Under the pieces are notes generated by a model. It saw nothing but the letters and a program-made list of their open reading frames with translations. It was not told the origin of the DNA and did no database searches. Position numbers and translations under genes: made by a program. From the NCBI GenBank assembly GCA_015689685.1, contig WVSL01000011.1:1-64000 (forward strand): DNA of 64,000 nt, in the 5' to 3' direction. This stretch comes from Rhodobacterales bacterium HKCCE2091. Its GTDB lineage: Bacteria > Pseudomonadota > Alphaproteobacteria > Rhodobacterales > Rhodobacteraceae. Positions 1,261 through 14,801 of this stretch are shown here, one piece after another (within the stretch, counting starts at the first letter, position 1; every line of letters starts with the position of its first letter).

Positions 1261-1499
1261 GCGTCCTCCACCAACATCTGTCCCAACATCTGACGCTGGA
1301 ACGGGATGGATACGCCGGTAGTCTCCGCGAGACGCTCGGTCAATTCTTCGCAAAAATTCAGGAAGTTATGGACCTTATTGCGCAGGCTTACGATAGAGGT
1401 TTGAGCCGCCTACGGGCTGCCATTTCCCCATCCGCAGCGACCCGGCGCGAGCACCCTGTCTAGGGTGCCCGATGTATACGCTCTCCGATGGCCCAGACG
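1261..1499. other. Intergenic stretch at the integrase/chromosome boundary
   Basis: No gene is supported here. Composition shifts from the moderate GC of the integrase to the high GC of the following genes. A perfect hairpin (GCACCCT, 4-base loop, AGGGTGC) lies at 1451-1468. I looked for a tRNA 3' end or a direct repeat matching bases 1-102 that could mark an attachment site and found none. Confidence 0.4.
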
Positions 1500-1526
1500 A
1501 AAAGGGCCCGCTCGATGCGGACCCTT
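1500..1526 (-). terminator. Intrinsic terminator of the Gly/Asn-repeat protein gene
   Basis: On the minus strand this reads as a ten-pair GC-rich stem (AAGGGTCCGC, loop ATCGA, GCGGGCCCTT, one G-U wobble) followed by TT, making a short T-run with the stem end. It begins 26 bases after the stop codon at 1553 of the upstream minus-strand gene. Confidence 0.65.
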
Positions 1527-1552
1527 CGTTCTTCGCAAATCCTTCTGCGCGG

Positions 1553-2536
1553 TCACTCCGCGGCGGCGACCTCCTCGGTTCCGGGCTCGATCAGGATCTC
1601 GGTCTCGACAACCTCCTCGACGGGGTCGCCGGTGGCTTCGCCGGTCTCGTCCTCAACGACTTCTTCCTCGCCCTCGGGGGTGCCGAGGCGCTGTTCCAAC
1701 CGGTCCATCAGGACTTCACGGGCCTCGTCGGTCAGTTCCCAGTTCGGGTTGGTGACGCCGGCCAGGGCCTCGTCTTCGGCGCCGAGCGCATCCTCGTAGC
1801 TCGCTTCGGCCTCGCCCGCGGCCGTCTCCAGCTGCTCCAGTTCCTCGACATAGGCGTCGTAGGCCGTCTGCTGTTCCGCCAGGCCATCGAGCTCCGCGCG
1901 CCGGTCGGCGACGGCGGTATCGTACTGGTCCTGCGTGATCGACCCGTTGGCGAGCTGCGCGTCCAGCGCCTCGATCTCGCCGTTCAGGCGATCCACCTCG
2001 GCGGCGATCTCTTCCGGCGCGGGGCCCTCGTAGCTGCCCTCGAACTCGGCCACGGCATCCAGCGCGGCCTGGTAGTCCTCGTACGCGCCATCGGCGGCAC
2101 CGGCGGAGTCGTAGACATCGCGCAGGCGGCCGATCATAGAGTTGTCGGAGGCGTTCGCGAAGGCCTGCGCGCTGGCGTGGGAGGCGTTCGCCCCGCCGAG
2201 CGCGCGGGCGATCTGGCCGTTGCTGCTGCCCCCGGCGTTGCGGTTGCTGCCCGGGCCGTTCACCCGGTTGGAATTGTTGCCGCCGGCATTGGCATGGTCC
2301 GGGGGGCCGCCCCGGCTGTCGCTTCCGCCATGTCCGCCGCCGTTGCCACCGCCATTGCCACCGCCGTTTCCACCGCCATTGCCGCCCCCGTTGCCGCCGC
2401 CGTTTCCACCGCCGTTTCCGCCGCGATCCGCAACGGCGGCGTCGGTCTGAGCGATGGTGATGGCGGTCGCCGTGGCGAGCGCGGGAAGCGCGGCGATCGC
2501 GAGTGCCGCGATGCGGGTGGGAAGCCGGTCGAACAT
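1553..2536 (-). CDS. Exported protein with GGGN repeats, coiled region and acidic tail
   Basis: Function unknown. The ATG at 2536 is preceded by GGAGAG; an in-frame TTG 15 bases further upstream is less likely. Residues 1-35 form a signal peptide or membrane anchor. Residues 39-70 consist of about seven GGGN tetrapeptide repeats ending in GGGH. A low-complexity Gly/Asn/Ser stretch follows, then a segment reading NASHASAQAFANAS, a type of sequence seen in surface or cell-envelope proteins. Residues 150-270 are rich in Ala and Glu and look helical or coiled. The last 50 residues are strongly acidic (EEEVVEDE and similar). The DNA of the repeat is a degenerate 12-bp tandem array and could change copy number. 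The gene is alone on its strand, divergent from the next gene, with its own terminator. Confidence 0.7.
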   Translation of the reverse strand: MFDRLPTRIAALAIAALPALATATAITIAQTDAAVADRGGNGGGNGGGNGGGNGGGNGGGNGGGNGGGHGGSDSRGGPPDHANAGGNNSNRVNGPGSNRNAGGSSNGQIARALGGANASHASAQAFANASDNSMIGRLRDVYDSAGAADGAYEDYQAALDAVAEFEGSYEGPAPEEIAAEVDRLNGEIEALDAQLANGSITQDQYDTAVADRRAELDGLAEQQTAYDAYVEELEQLETAAGEAEASYEDALGAEDEALAGVTNPNWELTDEAREVLMDRLEQRLGTPEGEEEVVEDETGEATGDPVEEVVETEILIEPGTEEVAAAE

Positions 2537-8875: not shown

Positions 8876-9547
8876 TCAGCCGCGGCGAAGCTGCCACAGG
8901 CGTTCGAGATCGGCGAGCAGACCGGCCGACAGGCGGCGCGCGACGGCGCTGTCGATCCGCGCGAGCGCGGGGTCCGTCGGCTTGCCCGCGAAGTCCGCCG
9001 GTGCCTCCGCCAGACCCCGGACGCGGCCCTGCGACAGGCGGTCGACGAGGCGGCGGATCGCGGCGCGCATCTCGCGCGACTCGCGCAGGCCCGCCAGCAG
9101 GATCCGCCTCTCGAAGGCCGAGGCGATGCAGGCCCGGACCGTATCGATCGACAGCTCGTCCTTGACGATGTAGTCGGCGCAACCCGACCGCATCGCTTCC
9201 ACGATCACGTGCGGCTCGGTCGCCCGGCTCAGCATGATCGCGGCGGCGCGGTTCTGCCCGGCATGGGCGGCGAGCAGTGCGACGGCGTCGAGGCCGGTCT
9301 CGAACCCGAGCCAGTAGTCCACGAACACGATGTCGAAGCTCTGCCGGTCGAGCGCCGGCATCAGCTCGGACACTTCGCCGAGTTCCGTCGCCTCGGCCTC
9401 CAGCCCGGCGCGGCCGAGCATCCGCAGAAGCGCCATCCGGTCGGCCTCGTCGTCGTCGAGCACGAGGACGCGGAGGCGGCCGGTGCCGCTTTGCCGGGGT
9501 TCGGGCATGGGTGCGAGATCACGCCTCGCCATGACGGAGACTGTCAT
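8876..9547 (-). CDS. Orphan response regulator with receiver domain and helical C terminus
   Basis: Receiver domain at about residues 25-145, with acidic pocket D31-D33 (VLDDDEAD), phosphoacceptor D77 (FVDYW), S107 (IMLSRA) and K129 (IVKDEL), so phosphorylation should be possible. The C-terminal 75 residues are helical and Arg/Ala/Leu-rich with no recognisable DNA-binding or enzyme domain. The protein may act through protein contacts or receive phosphate in a relay. The ATG at 9547 has AAGGAG nine bases upstream. It lies 137 bases downstream of the GGDEF gene on the same strand and could belong to that signalling unit. No histidine kinase gene is in the window. Confidence 0.8.
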   Translation of the reverse strand: MTVSVMARRDLAPMPEPRQSGTGRLRVLVLDDDEADRMALLRMLGRAGLEAEATELGEVSELMPALDRQSFDIVFVDYWLGFETGLDAVALLAAHAGQNRAAAIMLSRATEPHVIVEAMRSGCADYIVKDELSIDTVRACIASAFERRILLAGLRESREMRAAIRRLVDRLSQGRVRGLAEAPADFAGKPTDPALARIDSAVARRLSAGLLADLERLWQLRRG

Positions 9548-9684: not shown

Positions 9685-10716
9685 TCAGGGCAGTCCGCGC
9701 GCGGCGTCGAGCCCGGGCGGCCGGAACAGCGTGTGCCGGCCCCGGCCCTGGCGCTTGGAAGCATAGAGCGCCTCGTCCGCGTCGCGCAGCATCTGGTCCG
9801 GGTCGGGATCGGCGTAAAGGCTCGACCTCGTGGTGCCGATGGAGCCGCCGACCTGGCAGATGCTGCCCTCGACCTCCATCGGACGGCTCAGCTTGTCCAT
9901 CACCCGCCGCGCGATCCGCGACAGGATCGACGGTTCGTCGCATCCGCTCAGAAGCAGGACGAACTCGTCGCCGCCGATCCGCGCGGCGAGGTCGGTGTCT
10001 CGGACCTCGGATTTCAGGATCTGGGCGACGCGAACCAGGACCTCGTCGCCCGCAGCGTGGCCGAGCTCGTCGTTGACCTGCTTGAAGTAGTCGAGATCGA
10101 TATGCATCAGAGCGAACTCGGCGTCCGGCCGCAGAAGCAGTTCGTCGAGCCGGGCGGCGAGCCCGCGCCGGTTCGCGAGCCCCGTCAGGGCGTCGGAGGT
10201 GGCCCGCGCCTCGGCGGCATGGCGGGCGGCGAGGAGGCGGTCGGTCAGGCGGCGCGTCTCGGCGGTGGTGGCGAGGATCGCCTCGCGCAGGTAGAGCAGT
10301 TCGACGGTCTGGTCGCAGGGCGAGAAATCCGAAAGGGTCAGGCCCCGCGCCTCCACCGCCTCGGCGAAGGACAGGCCGAGGGAGATGTTCAGCAGGCCGC
10401 CGCTGCCCCCGGCCAGCCCGTGCACCTGCCCGCGCAAGGGCAGGTCGGGCAGACCGGTCAGCCGCAGGCCAAGCGCCGCACCCTCCACCGCCAGCAGGGC
10501 GGGCAGGCTGTCGATTGCGCGGGGCTGGCGGATGTCGATCACGTCGAACACGTCGCGACCGCGCAGGTCGCCGCGCGCGGCGAGCTTTTCCAGCGTCGGA
10601 CCGGCCCGGTTCACCGCCCCGCTCGGCCCGAACCAGAGATGCATCGGCAGGAGCCGGTCGAGCCCCCGGCCCGGCAGGCCGATCACGCGGTGCAAGATGG
10701 TGTCCACACGGCTCAT
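9685..10716 (-). CDS. HNOBA-GGDEF diguanylate cyclase
   Basis: Predicted to make c-di-GMP from GTP under control of the H-NOX-like protein encoded just upstream. Residues 20-145 match the H-NOX-associated (HNOBA) domain: LPMHLWF, a conserved LRGQVH segment, and GLTLSDFSPCDQTVELLYL at its end. A short coiled linker (about 145-172) leads to the GGDEF domain (about 175-335), with intact signature RIGGDEF (248-252) and an upstream RDTD at 239-242 in the position of the inhibitory I-site. The enzyme should therefore be active and product-inhibited. The ATG at 10716 overlaps the H-NOX stop as ATGA, so the two proteins are translationally coupled. There is no transmembrane segment; the complex should be cytosolic. 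Confidence 0.88.
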   Translation of the reverse strand: MSRVDTILHRVIGLPGRGLDRLLPMHLWFGPSGAVNRAGPTLEKLAARGDLRGRDVFDVIDIRQPRAIDSLPALLAVEGAALGLRLTGLPDLPLRGQVHGLAGGSGGLLNISLGLSFAEAVEARGLTLSDFSPCDQTVELLYLREAILATTAETRRLTDRLLAARHAAEARATSDALTGLANRRGLAARLDELLLRPDAEFALMHIDLDYFKQVNDELGHAAGDEVLVRVAQILKSEVRDTDLAARIGGDEFVLLLSGCDEPSILSRIARRVMDKLSRPMEVEGSICQVGGSIGTTRSSLYADPDPDQMLRDADEALYASKRQGRGRHTLFRPPGLDAARGLP

Positions 10717-11294
10717 CGCGCGGCCCCGCCCAGGTCGAAGTGCCGCCCCTCGGAATGGCGGTTGTCGAGCAGTTCCACGTCGATCCGGCGCGCGTCGTCC
10801 TCGTCCGGCTCGATCAGGACGAGGGCGCCGTAATCGTCCGCCATCGCCCGCAACGCGCCGACGACGAGCGGCGCGATGTCGAAGCCGGGCCACTCGATCG
10901 TCAGGCCGAACCGGCTTCGGCCCGACCGTTCCATCGTGAAGCGGGGCACGTCGAAGCCGGGCAGCGCCATGCGCGCGCGGTCCGGCACCTGTTCCACCGA
11001 CATCATGAAGTCCCGGAAGTCGGCCCCGCCGAAGCGCAGCAGCCGGCGCACCCGGTCGCGCGCAGGGTCGGTGACGATCCAGGTGCCGACATCTTCGAGC
11101 AGCGAGGCCGGCGTGGTGCCGAGCCGGGATGCCGCCGCCGCCACGACCGCCCGCGTCAGGCCCGGTTCGTAGTTCAGCATCGCCTCGAAATCCTCGAACG
11201 GGAGGGCGGCGTCGCGGCGGACGGTGTCCCAGACCTGACGGCCGTAGGTTTCGACGAGAAACCCCTGCAACGCCTTGTTCACCAGCCCGTGCAT
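10713..11294 (-). CDS. H-NOX-fold protein lacking the heme ligands
   Basis: H-NOX proteins normally hold a heme that senses NO or O2. This 193-residue protein has the fold signature: the opening MHGLVNKALQGFLVETYG, then GTWIVTDP, LLRFGGADFRDFM and APLVVGALRAMADDYGALV. Aligned with the family motif LHARVGLTFP, its segment is VPDRARMALP, putting Pro104 where the proximal heme His should be. The YxSxR motif that holds the heme propionates is replaced (I133, W135, G137 in LTIEWPGFDI). As written it probably binds no heme and must sense something else or act as a structural partner. It is coupled by an ATGA overlap to the HNOBA-GGDEF gene. The start at 11294 is chosen because it matches the usual H-NOX N terminus. 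Confidence 0.85.
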   Translation of the reverse strand: MHGLVNKALQGFLVETYGRQVWDTVRRDAALPFEDFEAMLNYEPGLTRAVVAAAASRLGTTPASLLEDVGTWIVTDPARDRVRRLLRFGGADFRDFMMSVEQVPDRARMALPGFDVPRFTMERSGRSRFGLTIEWPGFDIAPLVVGALRAMADDYGALVLIEPDEDDARRIDVELLDNRHSEGRHFDLGGAAR

Positions 11295-11371: not shown

Positions 11372-12943
11372 TCAGAAATCCGTCGGCGCCCCGCCCTCTT
11401 CCTTCCGCCGCGCCACGAAGGCCGCGAGCTCCTCGCGGATCGCCTCGTCCATCGGAGGCGGCTCGAACTCCGCGAGGATCCGCTTGGCCACGCCATGCGC
11501 GCGTTCCGCCGTCCACACCGCCCCGTCAAGCTGCCATGCCTCGAAGTTCCGCCAGTCCGACAGGAAGGGCTGGTAGAACGCCTCGGTGTAGCGGGCCTGG
11601 GTGTGGGCGCAGCCGAAGAAATGACCGCCTGGGCCGACCTCGGCGATGGTTTCCACCGCGATGTCCTCGGGGCCCGTGGCCCAGAGCTGCGGTTCGAAAT
11701 ATCGCTGGATCTGCTGGAGCACCTCGCAGTCCATGACGAACTTCTCGGGGCTCGCGATCAGCCCGCCCTCAAGCCAGCCGGCGGCGTGGTAGACGATGTT
11801 CGACCCCGATTGCACCGCCGCCCAGAGCGACTGCGAGGTTTCCCACATCGCCTGCCCGTCGGGCACGTTCGCCGCGCAGACGCCCGAGGACCTGAGCGGC
11901 AGGCCGTAGAACCGCGCCATCTGGCCGGTCATCTGGGTCGCGCGCATGTATTCGGGCGTTCCGAAGGCAGGCGCGCCGGATTTCATGTCGACGTTCGAAG
12001 TGAAGGTGCCGATCCCGGCGGGACAGCCCGGGTTGATGACCTGGATCAGCGCGATGGCCGACAGCGCCTCCGCGATCGACAGAGTGACCGCGCCGGCCAT
12101 CGTCACCGGCGACATGGCCCCCGCGAGCGTGAACGGCGTCACGATGGTCGGCTGCCCGCGCCGGGCTAGCCGCATGGCCCCGTCCAGCATCGGGAAGTCG
12201 TGCTTCAGCGGCGAGACCGAGTTGATGTTGGTGTACATCCGCGGGGTCGCGTCGAAGTCCTCGTGGCTGAGCCCGCCCGCGATCCGCACCATCTCCATCA
12301 CGTCCTCGACCCGTTCGGGGCCGAGCGAGTAGGCGTGGCAGACCTTGTCGGTAAGCGTCAGCTTTTCGTAGAGGCAGTCGAGGTGGCGGATCGAGGCGTG
12401 GATGTCGATCGGCTCCACCGGGTAGCCGCCGGCGAAGTGGATGCAGTTGAAATACTGCGTCAGCTTGATGAACTCACGGTAGGTTTCGAAGTCGCCGGGC
12501 CGCTTGCCCCGCTCCATGTCCCAGGCGTTCGGCGGCGACGAAACGTTGCCGAACAGGATGGTCCGGCCGCCGACCCTGAGCGTCCGTTCGGGGTTCCGCG
12601 GTGTGATGGTGAATTCCGCCGGCGCCTTCGCCACCATCTCGGTGACGAAGGACTCGTCCATGAACACCGTCTCGTCCACGACCTTGCACCCCGCCCGCGC
12701 GAGGATCTCCCGCGCCTCGGGGTTGAGGAAGACGATCCCGATCTCCTTCAGGATCCGCATCGCGCCGTCATGGATCGCCTGGACGCCCTCGGGGGTGAGC
12801 GGTTCGATCGGCGGGTCGGTGTTCTCGGGCAGCCTCCATGGCGTCTGGTCGATGGCATGGTGCCCGGCGCGGTCGGCGTGTCCGCGGCGCCCCCCGGCAC
12901 GGCGGCGGCGGGGTTCGGGCGCGGCGGCGGTATCGAGCGTCAT
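11372..12943 (-). CDS. Trimethylamine methyltransferase (MttB) family protein, non-pyrrolysine type
   Basis: Member of the MttB superfamily, whose best-known members transfer a methyl group from quaternary or tertiary amines to a corrinoid protein. The protein has 523 residues with no in-frame TAG, so it is not the pyrrolysine trimethylamine enzyme. Non-pyrrolysine relatives act on glycine betaine, proline betaine or carnitine. Recognisable segments are LTPEGVQAIHDGAMRILKEIG near residue 50, GNVSSPPNAWDM, and VGPGGHFFGCAHTQARY towards the C terminus. An Arg-rich, Pro/Ala-rich N-terminal extension of about 30 residues precedes the barrel. The ATG at 12943 has GAGGAG upstream. No corrinoid protein gene is adjacent, so the acceptor is unknown. 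The carnitine genes at 4-6.4 kb make a methylated-amine substrate plausible. Confidence 0.82.
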   Translation of the reverse strand: MTLDTAAAPEPRRRRAGGRRGHADRAGHHAIDQTPWRLPENTDPPIEPLTPEGVQAIHDGAMRILKEIGIVFLNPEAREILARAGCKVVDETVFMDESFVTEMVAKAPAEFTITPRNPERTLRVGGRTILFGNVSSPPNAWDMERGKRPGDFETYREFIKLTQYFNCIHFAGGYPVEPIDIHASIRHLDCLYEKLTLTDKVCHAYSLGPERVEDVMEMVRIAGGLSHEDFDATPRMYTNINSVSPLKHDFPMLDGAMRLARRGQPTIVTPFTLAGAMSPVTMAGAVTLSIAEALSAIALIQVINPGCPAGIGTFTSNVDMKSGAPAFGTPEYMRATQMTGQMARFYGLPLRSSGVCAANVPDGQAMWETSQSLWAAVQSGSNIVYHAAGWLEGGLIASPEKFVMDCEVLQQIQRYFEPQLWATGPEDIAVETIAEVGPGGHFFGCAHTQARYTEAFYQPFLSDWRNFEAWQLDGAVWTAERAHGVAKRILAEFEPPPMDEAIREELAAFVARRKEEGGAPTDF

Positions 12944-13044: not shown

Positions 13045-13323
13045 TCAGGTCCAGTCGGGAACGGCCCCGCCCGGCAACGCCGCCCGCACGGCGGCGAACC
13101 GCTCCGGCGGGACGCCGAGCGCGCTGCCGCAGGCAATGCACCAGGCATCGTCCATCATCAGGAAGTCGACGACGCTGGCGAGGAACTCGGGCTCGGCCGC
13201 GCGGGTTCTCAGGTCCTCCGGCGAGGCCCCGGTGGACCCGAGGAAGACCGGGCCCAGATCCTCCTCCGCCAGGAGCCAGGCCAGGACCTTCAGCGCGTGT
13301 TCCTCGGCGGCTTCGGGTGTCAC
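13045..13323 (-). CDS. DUF3572 family protein
   Basis: Small protein of 92 residues matching DUF3572: ALKVLAWLLAEEDLGPVFLGSTG, then DFLMMDDAWCIACGSALGVPPERF. Function is unknown. The GTG at 13323 is used as start, preceded by GGAGG. It is divergent from the PleD-like gene, an arrangement I associate with alphaproteobacteria from general knowledge. An octamer TTAACCAT at 13356-13363 in the shared upstream region resembles half of a CtrA site. Confidence 0.8.
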   Translation of the reverse strand: MTPEAAEEHALKVLAWLLAEEDLGPVFLGSTGASPEDLRTRAAEPEFLASVVDFLMMDDAWCIACGSALGVPPERFAAVRAALPGGAVPDWT

Positions 13324-13415: not shown

Positions 13416-14801
13416 ATGTCAGGTCGCATACTCGTCGTCGATTCCGTCGCGGCCAACCGGATCGTGATGAAGGCCCGGCTGAACGCCGCCTTCCACGAGG
13501 TCGAAACCGCGAGGTCGGCCGCGGATCTCGCCCGCGCGCTGGCGGTCTCGGTGCCCGATCTCGTGATCCTCGACGCGGCGCTTCCGGGCGACGACCCCGC
13601 CGCGCTCTGCCGGACGCTTCGGGCCGATCCCGCCACCGCCGAAATGCCGATCCTCGTTCTCTGCCCCGCCGGGGACCGGGACACGCGGATCGACGCGCTG
13701 TGCGCGGGCGCCGACGACGTGCTCGAGCGGCCGTTCGGAGAAATCGCGCTATTCGCCCGCATCCGCGCGCTCCTGCGGGAGCAGGCGGTCAGGCGCGACC
13801 TGTGCAGCCGGCAGGTCGATACCGGCGGCATCCCGGATCCCGCGTCCTGGGTGCCGGAACCGGGGGGGCGGATCGGGCTGATCGCGGCGCAGCCGTCGAT
13901 GGCGCTGCGCTGGCAGGCGGAGCTCGCCGCCCGCGGCGCGCGCCAGGCGCAAGTGCTGGACCCCGCCACCGTGCTCGGCCGGTCCGGCGGCGCGGCGGCG
14001 CACGAGCTCTACGTGATTGACGGGATGCTCGGCCGGGGCAGCGACGGTCTCCAGCTTCTGACCGAGCTTCGCGCGCGGTCGCAGGGGCGCGACGCGGCGG
14101 TGCTGATGCTCCTGCCCGACGGCGACGAGATGCGGGCCGCCGCGGCCTTCGACCTCGGTGCAGCCGGCGTCCTGCACGGCCGCGTCACGCCGGCCGAACT
14201 GGCCGCGCGGACCGACACGCTCCTGCGCCGGAAACGGCGCGTAGACCGCCTGCGCGCGGCCCTGAACGCGGGGCTGGAACTGGCCGTGACGGACGGGCTG
14301 ACCGGGCTTCGCAACCGCCGCTACGCGATGGCGCGCCTGCCGCGGATGATGGCAGCAGACGGGCCCGGCCGGCTCGCCGTGATGATGCTGGACCTCGACC
14401 ACTTCAAGGAGATCAACGACCGCCACGGCCACGGGGCTGGCGACCGGGTGCTGGCCGCGGTCGCGCGGCGGCTCGCCGACCAGCTCCGCGCCGACGCGCT
14501 TGTCGCGCGGATCGGGGGCGAGGAGTTCCTCGTCGCCGTGCCGGTGCCGGATGCCGCGGCGGCGCGGCTGGCGGCCGAACGGCTCCGTGCGTCGGTCTCG
14601 GCGCACCCCATCGCTCTCGGCGGCGGGTCCGGTTCGGTGCTGCCGGTGACGGTCAGTATCGGCGCGGTGCTGCATGACGGGACCGACCCCGACGCCGAGG
14701 CGCTGATCGCGCGGGCGGATGCCGCGCTCTATCGGTCGAAACGGCTTGGCCGGAACCGCGTCACTTTCACCGATCCCGCGATCACCGCCGTCGCCCGCTG
14801 A
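13416..14801 (+). CDS. pleD: PleD-like response regulator, REC-REC-GGDEF
   Basis: Predicted diguanylate cyclase controlled by receiver domains, as in the cell-cycle regulator PleD. The first receiver (residues 1-120) keeps D9 and phosphoacceptor D53 but has C83 where Ser/Thr and R105 (ERPF) where Lys is usual. The second receiver (about 140-275) is degenerate, with little more than YVIDGML recognisable. The GGDEF domain (about 290-455) has ARIGGEEF near residue 367, which supports catalysis. The I-site position reads RADA in place of RxxD, so product inhibition there is probably lost. It faces DUF3572 across a short divergent region. A divK gene is not adjacent. Confidence 0.88.
   Translation: MSGRILVVDSVAANRIVMKARLNAAFHEVETARSAADLARALAVSVPDLVILDAALPGDDPAALCRTLRADPATAEMPILVLCPAGDRDTRIDALCAGADDVLERPFGEIALFARIRALLREQAVRRDLCSRQVDTGGIPDPASWVPEPGGRIGLIAAQPSMALRWQAELAARGARQAQVLDPATVLGRSGGAAAHELYVIDGMLGRGSDGLQLLTELRARSQGRDAAVLMLLPDGDEMRAAAAFDLGAAGVLHGRVTPAELAARTDTLLRRKRRVDRLRAALNAGLELAVTDGLTGLRNRRYAMARLPRMMAADGPGRLAVMMLDLDHFKEINDRHGHGAGDRVLAAVARRLADQLRADALVARIGGEEFLVAVPVPDAAAARLAAERLRASVSAHPIALGGGSGSVLPVTVSIGAVLHDGTDPDAEALIARADAALYRSKRLGRNRVTFTDPAITAVAR

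Follow-up and report, generated by a model that had tools for sequence, protein, structure and literature searches.

The window (the whole stretch of DNA that was analysed, 64 kb) carries an hnoX-like gene whose stop codon overlaps the start of a predicted diguanylate cyclase gene. The genes and motifs of the locus are listed below by position in the window.

8879–9547, minus strand: receiver-domain protein downstream of the cyclase (profile match)
9685–10716, minus strand: partner diguanylate cyclase (predicted), 343 aa, its start overlapping the hnoX stop by 4 nt (ATGA)
9961–9975, minus strand: GGDEF active-site motif, cyclase residues 248–252 (sequence)
9991–10002, minus strand: RxxD motif, cyclase residues 239–242, which we take to be the inhibitory site (sequence)
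10201–10716, minus strand: N-terminal part of the cyclase (HNOBA/PAS-like domain plus coiled-coil), with homology to sGC beta-1 205–370 (profile match; helix at 136–172)
10713–11294, minus strand: hnoX-like gene, 193 aa from ATG, with an H-NOX fold lacking the proximal His and YxSxR
10884–10886, minus strand: codon 137, Gly at the Arg position of YxSxR (alignment and codon check)
10890–10892, minus strand: codon 135, Trp at the Ser position of YxSxR (alignment and codon check)
10896–10898, minus strand: codon 133, Ile at the Tyr position of YxSxR (alignment and codon check)
10983–10985, minus strand: codon 104, CCG (Pro), at the proximal His position (alignment and codon check)
11025–11048, minus strand: family signature RRLLRFGG, residues 83–90, in the helix preceding the proximal helix (conservation and model)
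11372–12943, minus strand: MTTB-family methyltransferase (MTTB, 735.6 bits), 77 nt upstream of hnoX and a possible operon member
13048–13323, minus strand: DUF3572 gene near the H-NOX operon
13416–14798, plus strand: divergent receiver-GGDEF protein with PleD-like domain order (profile matches)

Some of these neighbours recur beside related operons. Of the 156 family loci that extend 1.5 kb or more upstream, 88 have an MTTB gene there in the same orientation, within 300 nt in 47 and mostly at 62 to 162 nt. The H-NOX operon may be tied functionally to methylamine or betaine metabolism. A DUF3572 relative stands upstream of the operon in 45 of 65 long loci, and relatives of the receiver-domain protein at 8879–9547 were found in none of the 65. 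Rfam and tRNA scans of the 64-kb window gave zero matches, as did phage records.

The product of the hnoX-like gene is an H-NOX homologue by both profile and fold. Pfam HNOB matches residues 2 to 157 with 71.3 bits (cut-off, 25.5). The AlphaFold2 model has a mean pLDDT of 91.3, with a helix at residues 77 to 89, and its best solved matches are sGC beta (Z, 21.9; rmsd, 2.2) and Nostoc H-NOX (Z, 21.0). The fold claimed for this protein by an earlier note, made from the DNA letters, is thus kept. The note had also claimed that all heme ligands are gone. Alignment with a characterised H-NOX, Nostoc Alr2278 (E value of 1.7e-13 by phmmer), together with a check of the codons, agrees: Nostoc His105 lies opposite P104, and the Y, S, and R of YQSTR lie opposite I133, W135, and G137. 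As H2, H180, and H185 are the only His residues in the protein (Cys residues, zero), no nearby His substitutes for the proximal one, so that the contrary case named in the note, another His in that position, is absent. Judged from its residues, the protein falls outside the canonical heme-binding criteria, with both the proximal His and YxSxR gone, and it probably carries no heme. A likeness of the model to active over inactive sGC was left unused, as the structural-match rows were not comparable.

The downstream gene is predicted to encode an HNOBA-GGDEF cyclase that would synthesise c-di-GMP. It looks intact, as the note had it: besides the GGDEF motif, which is intact in 190 of 191 partner cyclase rows (the remaining row is cut short), it has an RxxD motif in which R239 and D242 are conserved at ≥90%. 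The HNOBA label holds at the level of the family. On its own, the window cyclase stays below the Pfam cut-off (19 bits versus 23.4), but HNOBA matches 42 of 54 cyclase family members at an E value of ≤0.01, and a 49-sequence profile of the N-terminal 172 residues matches sGC beta-1 205–370 with an E value of 5.9e-8. The same profile also matches the Nostoc H-NOXA structures 2p04 and 2p08 and human sGC beta and alpha. The cyclase model (mean pLDDT, 94.1) has a PAS-like part, a helix at 136 to 172, and a GGDEF domain; since its structural matches are mostly GGDEF domains, the PAS assignment rests on the sequence match. In light of the match to sGC beta-1, the operon corresponds to an sGC beta cut after the H-NOX domain, GGDEF standing where the guanylate cyclase domain would be.

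To place the window pair among its relatives, we collected HNOB loci from Rhodobacteraceae. HNOB of either type occurs in 221 of 295 genomes, and most of these loci, not all, were retrieved. The H-NOX alignment contains 222 rows, 194 from the family described here (185 from Rhodobacteraceae genomes and 9 from Rhodobacterales records or metagenome bins) and 28 of another type. Ten identical duplicates and two fragments of the interrupted gene of genome G271 were removed, and two rows with chance triad letters were shifted from the canonical set into the family. His and the full triad are both present in 26 of the 28 nonfamily rows. In the family, the full triad is found in 0 of 194 rows; 153 rows retain none of its residues, 40 retain one, and 1 retains two. 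The proximal site holds Pro in 139 rows and His in 16, the others being Q (10), R (9), N (4), S (4), A (3), G (3), T (2), E (2), D (1), and K (1). The cyclase follows directly in 193 of the 194 rows, the exception lying at a contig edge, and the 4-nt overlap recurs in 138 of 191 when the cyclase start is placed at the start codon closest to the H-NOX stop. The operon is therefore preserved, as the note had stated, and because ligand loss and operon both recur across the family, the observation in the window is more than chance. Candidate natural H-NOX-cyclase fusions (G253, G272, and G250) were discarded as stop-to-stop frames only, with 0 rows reaching 300 aa.

Outside the ligand sites, the H-NOX protein is strongly conserved. 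The signature residues R83, R84, L85, R87, and G90 are present in 192, 193, 193, 194, and 192 of the 194 rows, respectively. G70 and G146 are invariant and G3 and G18 nearly so; the conserved hinge Gly residues given for Group 5 in the 2022 review discussed below may or may not be among these four. P117, also invariant, aligns with a conserved Pro of heme-binding H-NOX proteins. At column 133, the lost Tyr position, Cys is the commonest residue (108 of 192 rows), under the level of general conservation.

We counted changes at each column on a tree of the H-NOX and cyclase sequences from which the four ligand columns had been left out (FastTree; 191 of the 194 family rows, with three missing). 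Sites 104, 133, 135, and 137 changed 44, 60, 92, and 117 times, respectively, against a median of 52.5 per column. There were zero changes at W22, G70, P117, and G146, one each at R87 and F96, and two to four at R83, R84, L85, G90, D153, Y155, G156, F186, and L188. The H-NOX protein is therefore strongly constrained, though no longer at the heme ligands. With the operon kept as well, this supports the note's proposal of a changed function instead of random decay. At site 104, the 135 Pro codons examined are CCG (62), CCC (44), CCT (16), and CCA (13); the use of all four suggests selection for Pro in many lineages.

Contrary to the note's argument, the four ligands were not lost together. The triad is missing family-wide while the His site varies, and we therefore rejected a single loss of all four. 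Parsimony requires at least 10 changes between His and non-His at site 104 (gains or losses), and there are 7 independent His/non-His pairs on well-supported branches, or 10 on all branches. A model with gains and losses (lnL, −41.7) fits better than gains only (−47.2) or losses only (−51.3). The root state flips with the outgroup, the probability of His being 0.78 with two His outgroups and 0.16 without them. The note's interpretation thus stands as to fold, ligand loss, linked intact cyclase, and changed role and fails as to joint loss. A Fisher test made residue 135 (W in 9 of 16 His rows and 16 of 178 others) and residue 8 look strongly covariant with His104; we set both aside, since independent pairs gave no such signal (median P, 0.6 to 1). 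Beyond the family, the profile matched 5 other genomes among 289 of the class. The nearest outside relatives read (L002/L237, L238, and L239) keep His and YxSxR, which makes a heme-binding ancestor further back likely, with the triad lost toward the family. In L002 (genome G294), the H-NOX gene (1480–2043, plus strand) is paired with the same kind of HNOBA-GGDEF cyclase, which scores 272 bits against the family profile. This naturally occurring H-NOX can serve as a heme-binding control against which to compare the His-less family.

In a mean-field coupling analysis of 191 paired rows (a shallow alignment), the best H-NOX-cyclase coupling had a z of 8.1 and the 10th a z of 5.5, compared with 4.8 to 7.0 and 4.2 to 4.8 in eight partner shuffles, which do not keep the phylogeny. 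Cyclase residues 1 to 172, which supply 150 of the 278 columns used, are involved in 18 of the top 20 couplings. By mutual information, a z of >3.5 was reached by 81 of 24,150 pairs in this region versus 22 of 20,608 in GGDEF; pairs are not independent, the N-terminal region is more variable, and the two methods differ in their top-ranked pairs. These data give moderate support to docking of the H-NOX protein on the PAS/coiled-coil part of the cyclase, as a region and not as a contact map.

Two relatives of the window pair have been described genetically. In Paracoccus denitrificans, whose H-NOX (strain HAMBI_2443) is 37% identical to the window protein and has Pro at the proximal site, hnoX and dgcAB mutants are reported to have opposite biofilm phenotypes (Kumar and Spiro 2017, PMC5588039). 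The same paper describes the P. denitrificans and Rhodobacter sphaeroides H-NOX proteins as lacking the proximal His and reports that NO still stimulates P. denitrificans biofilm in hnoX mutants; even so, its authors propose a model in which NO promotes inhibition by H-NOX. In Dinoroseobacter shibae, the H-NOX protein (Dshi_2815; locus L067, 4904–5485, minus strand; 42% identical to the window protein) is listed as sensing NO through heme and inhibiting Dgc1 (PMC8846402, PMC7232146). The genome (G035) was recognised as D. shibae by its plasmid, contig 2 being 100% identical to NC_009955.1 over 3 kb. Its H-NOX protein keeps His104 and Arg137; in the other 15 His rows, Arg137 is absent. D. shibae, the sole member found with a reported NO response, is therefore among the least typical. 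Among the open-licence papers searched, none was found with a heme measurement in a His-less member.

We propose that the H-NOX protein is a heme-independent regulatory, probably inhibitory, subunit of a split sGC-like diguanylate cyclase with an input other than NO, and we put the probability of this reading at roughly 0.6. The two genes would encode the halves of a split bacterial sGC relative with c-di-GMP as the output, the cyclase half joining an sGC-like H-NOXA/PAS and coiled-coil part to GGDEF. In canonical H-NOX proteins, NO breaks the Fe-His bond. The family H-NOX, which would no longer use heme, may be an obligatory subunit docked on the PAS/coiled-coil part and may hold the cyclase in one state, most likely of low activity, much as a canonical H-NOX does after that break. 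The natural Pro at site 104 would then mimic the His-released state; an H105C variant of sGC beta is described as heme-free and resembling the activated state (PMC8196705). Inhibition of the cyclase by H-NOX, with NO in D. shibae and by inference from the mutants in P. denitrificans, makes a heme-free restraining subunit with a separate releasing signal the simplest model. The input would come from a second protein or from a ligand bound where heme used to sit. Speaking against our proposal are the heme/NO listing of the D. shibae protein despite a triad reduced to its Arg, the NO proposal of Kumar and Spiro, the conservation of His2, and a solved structure of So H-NOX (2kil).

By its title, the last of these is an H103G mutant with Fe(II)CO, which means that an H-NOX can retain heme without its proximal His, at least in certain conditions. 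This structure and the orthology of the operon to the D. shibae pair lend weight to the view that the window protein binds heme through some other ligand and is a sensor of NO or a different gas. His2, conserved in 177 of 194 family rows, points the same way. We nevertheless regard this view as unlikely. The D. shibae protein has His104 and, alone among the His rows, Arg137; the window protein has lost the whole triad along with the proximal His. Near the proximal site, the 178 non-His rows show no newly fixed column of His, Cys, Met, Tyr, or Lys, and His occurs within residues 99 to 110 in only 7 of them. The presence of the NO-linked gene nnrS is also independent of His: it is found in 9 of 16 His genomes and 32 of 64 non-His genomes, the latter chosen by the authors and including one, G271, with an interrupted hnoX. 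NnrS had 0 matches in the window's own genome, and control genomes also gave 0 in the same search. Less likely than our main reading, though possible, is that the emptied pocket has come to accommodate another small molecule, probably hydrophobic and anionic, which would set the activity of the cyclase. The modelled fold is kept with high confidence, the former-pocket columns 5, 9, 73, and 74 are apolar in the alignment, and the Arg cluster at 83, 84, and 87 is almost invariant. Residue 2, a Tyr in Nostoc and human H-NOX, is reported to touch heme-mimetic carboxylates there (PMC6225106), so with His2 conserved, some anionic ligand could still bind. The fold is shared with Bet3-type lipid-binding proteins (structural-match rows 44 and 46 to 50, one of them titled palmitate-bound), but their Z of 8 to 9 lies where a shared arrangement may mean nothing, and the Arg cluster might just as well point toward the cyclase. 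The MTTB neighbour hints at methylamine-type metabolism.

The heme-less "pseudo-H-NOX" of sGC alpha, reported to be unnecessary for dimerisation or regulation (PMC8196705), offers a precedent for a signal-free scaffold whose only task is to stabilise the cyclase or to localise it. That role seems quite improbable for the window protein: the P. denitrificans hnoX phenotype is opposite to that of losing both cyclases, a contrast that points to control of activity rather than to support (PMC5588039), and conservation is far above expectation for a passive domain. Decay of the gene is hardly credible. All four ligands are missing, and at least two HNOB matches from other genomes (G271 and G176) contain an internal stop, but the window frame is open, columns stay invariant over 194 rows, the 4-nt overlap is kept, and all four Pro codons are in use at site 104. 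With the cyclase following in nearly every row and columns such as W22, R87, F96, and P117 invariant or nearly so, decay is excluded for the family.

A broader reading of our subunit model, which we offer as a doubtful but possible generalisation, is that Rhodobacteraceae have a split cyclase whose input has been replaced: a heme-free H-NOX fixed in an NO-bound-like form would relay a nongas signal, and NO sensing, as listed for D. shibae, would be lineage specific, having come and gone via single-base His/Pro changes. If this is true, published NO models for His-less family members need revision. NO sensor is the routine annotation for H-NOX genes, yet most family members are without the defining residues, even though the operon recurs throughout the sampled genomes. 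The His/Pro variation inside one orthologous operon offers a ready comparison for asking how a ligand-less H-NOX controls a cyclase and what it senses, with residue 104 as a testable single-residue switch.

The window H-NOX is a member of an already described set, the large Group 5 of a 2022 review (PMC8738867), which includes the P. denitrificans protein (Pden_3719, with DgcA Pden_3720; PMC8738867, PMC5588039). Group 5 is described there as having the proximal His in fewer than 10% of members and mostly Pro instead, no conserved Cys, an adjacent GGDEF gene, and MTTB among the listed neighbours, and the review asks how such H-NOX proteins sense anything. Our His share of 8.2% (16 of 194 rows) agrees with that figure. 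The window protein is like Group 5 in its Pro at the proximal site, its lack of Cys, its adjacent GGDEF gene, and its MTTB neighbour, and no feature sets it apart. The passages on Group 5 in that review are silent about the triad, about an sGC-like domain in the partner, and about D. shibae as an exception; to the printed account we add family-wide counts, the contrast with D. shibae, the sGC-like partner anatomy, covariation that points to a partner surface, and the history of the His site. The D. shibae pair (Dshi_2815 and its neighbour) is an orthologous operon that has likewise lost the Y and S of the triad and differs in its His104, its Arg137, and its reported heme/NO sensing.

Among more distant systems, sGC beta shares homologous H-NOX, H-NOXA/PAS, and coiled-coil parts with the window operon, which differs in being split over two genes, in its GGDEF output, and in the absence of heme ligands. 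The sGC alpha pseudo-H-NOX resembles the window protein as a heme-less H-NOX in a cyclase complex, a state that is only presumed for the window; sGC alpha is described as excluding heme by an N-terminal extension, whereas the window protein begins directly at H-NOX. In Vibrio cholerae, a heme-free H-NOX is reported to sense redox state and zinc (PMC7108781), a parallel case of heme-independent H-NOX signalling, although that protein uses Cys at its zinc site and the window protein has no Cys.
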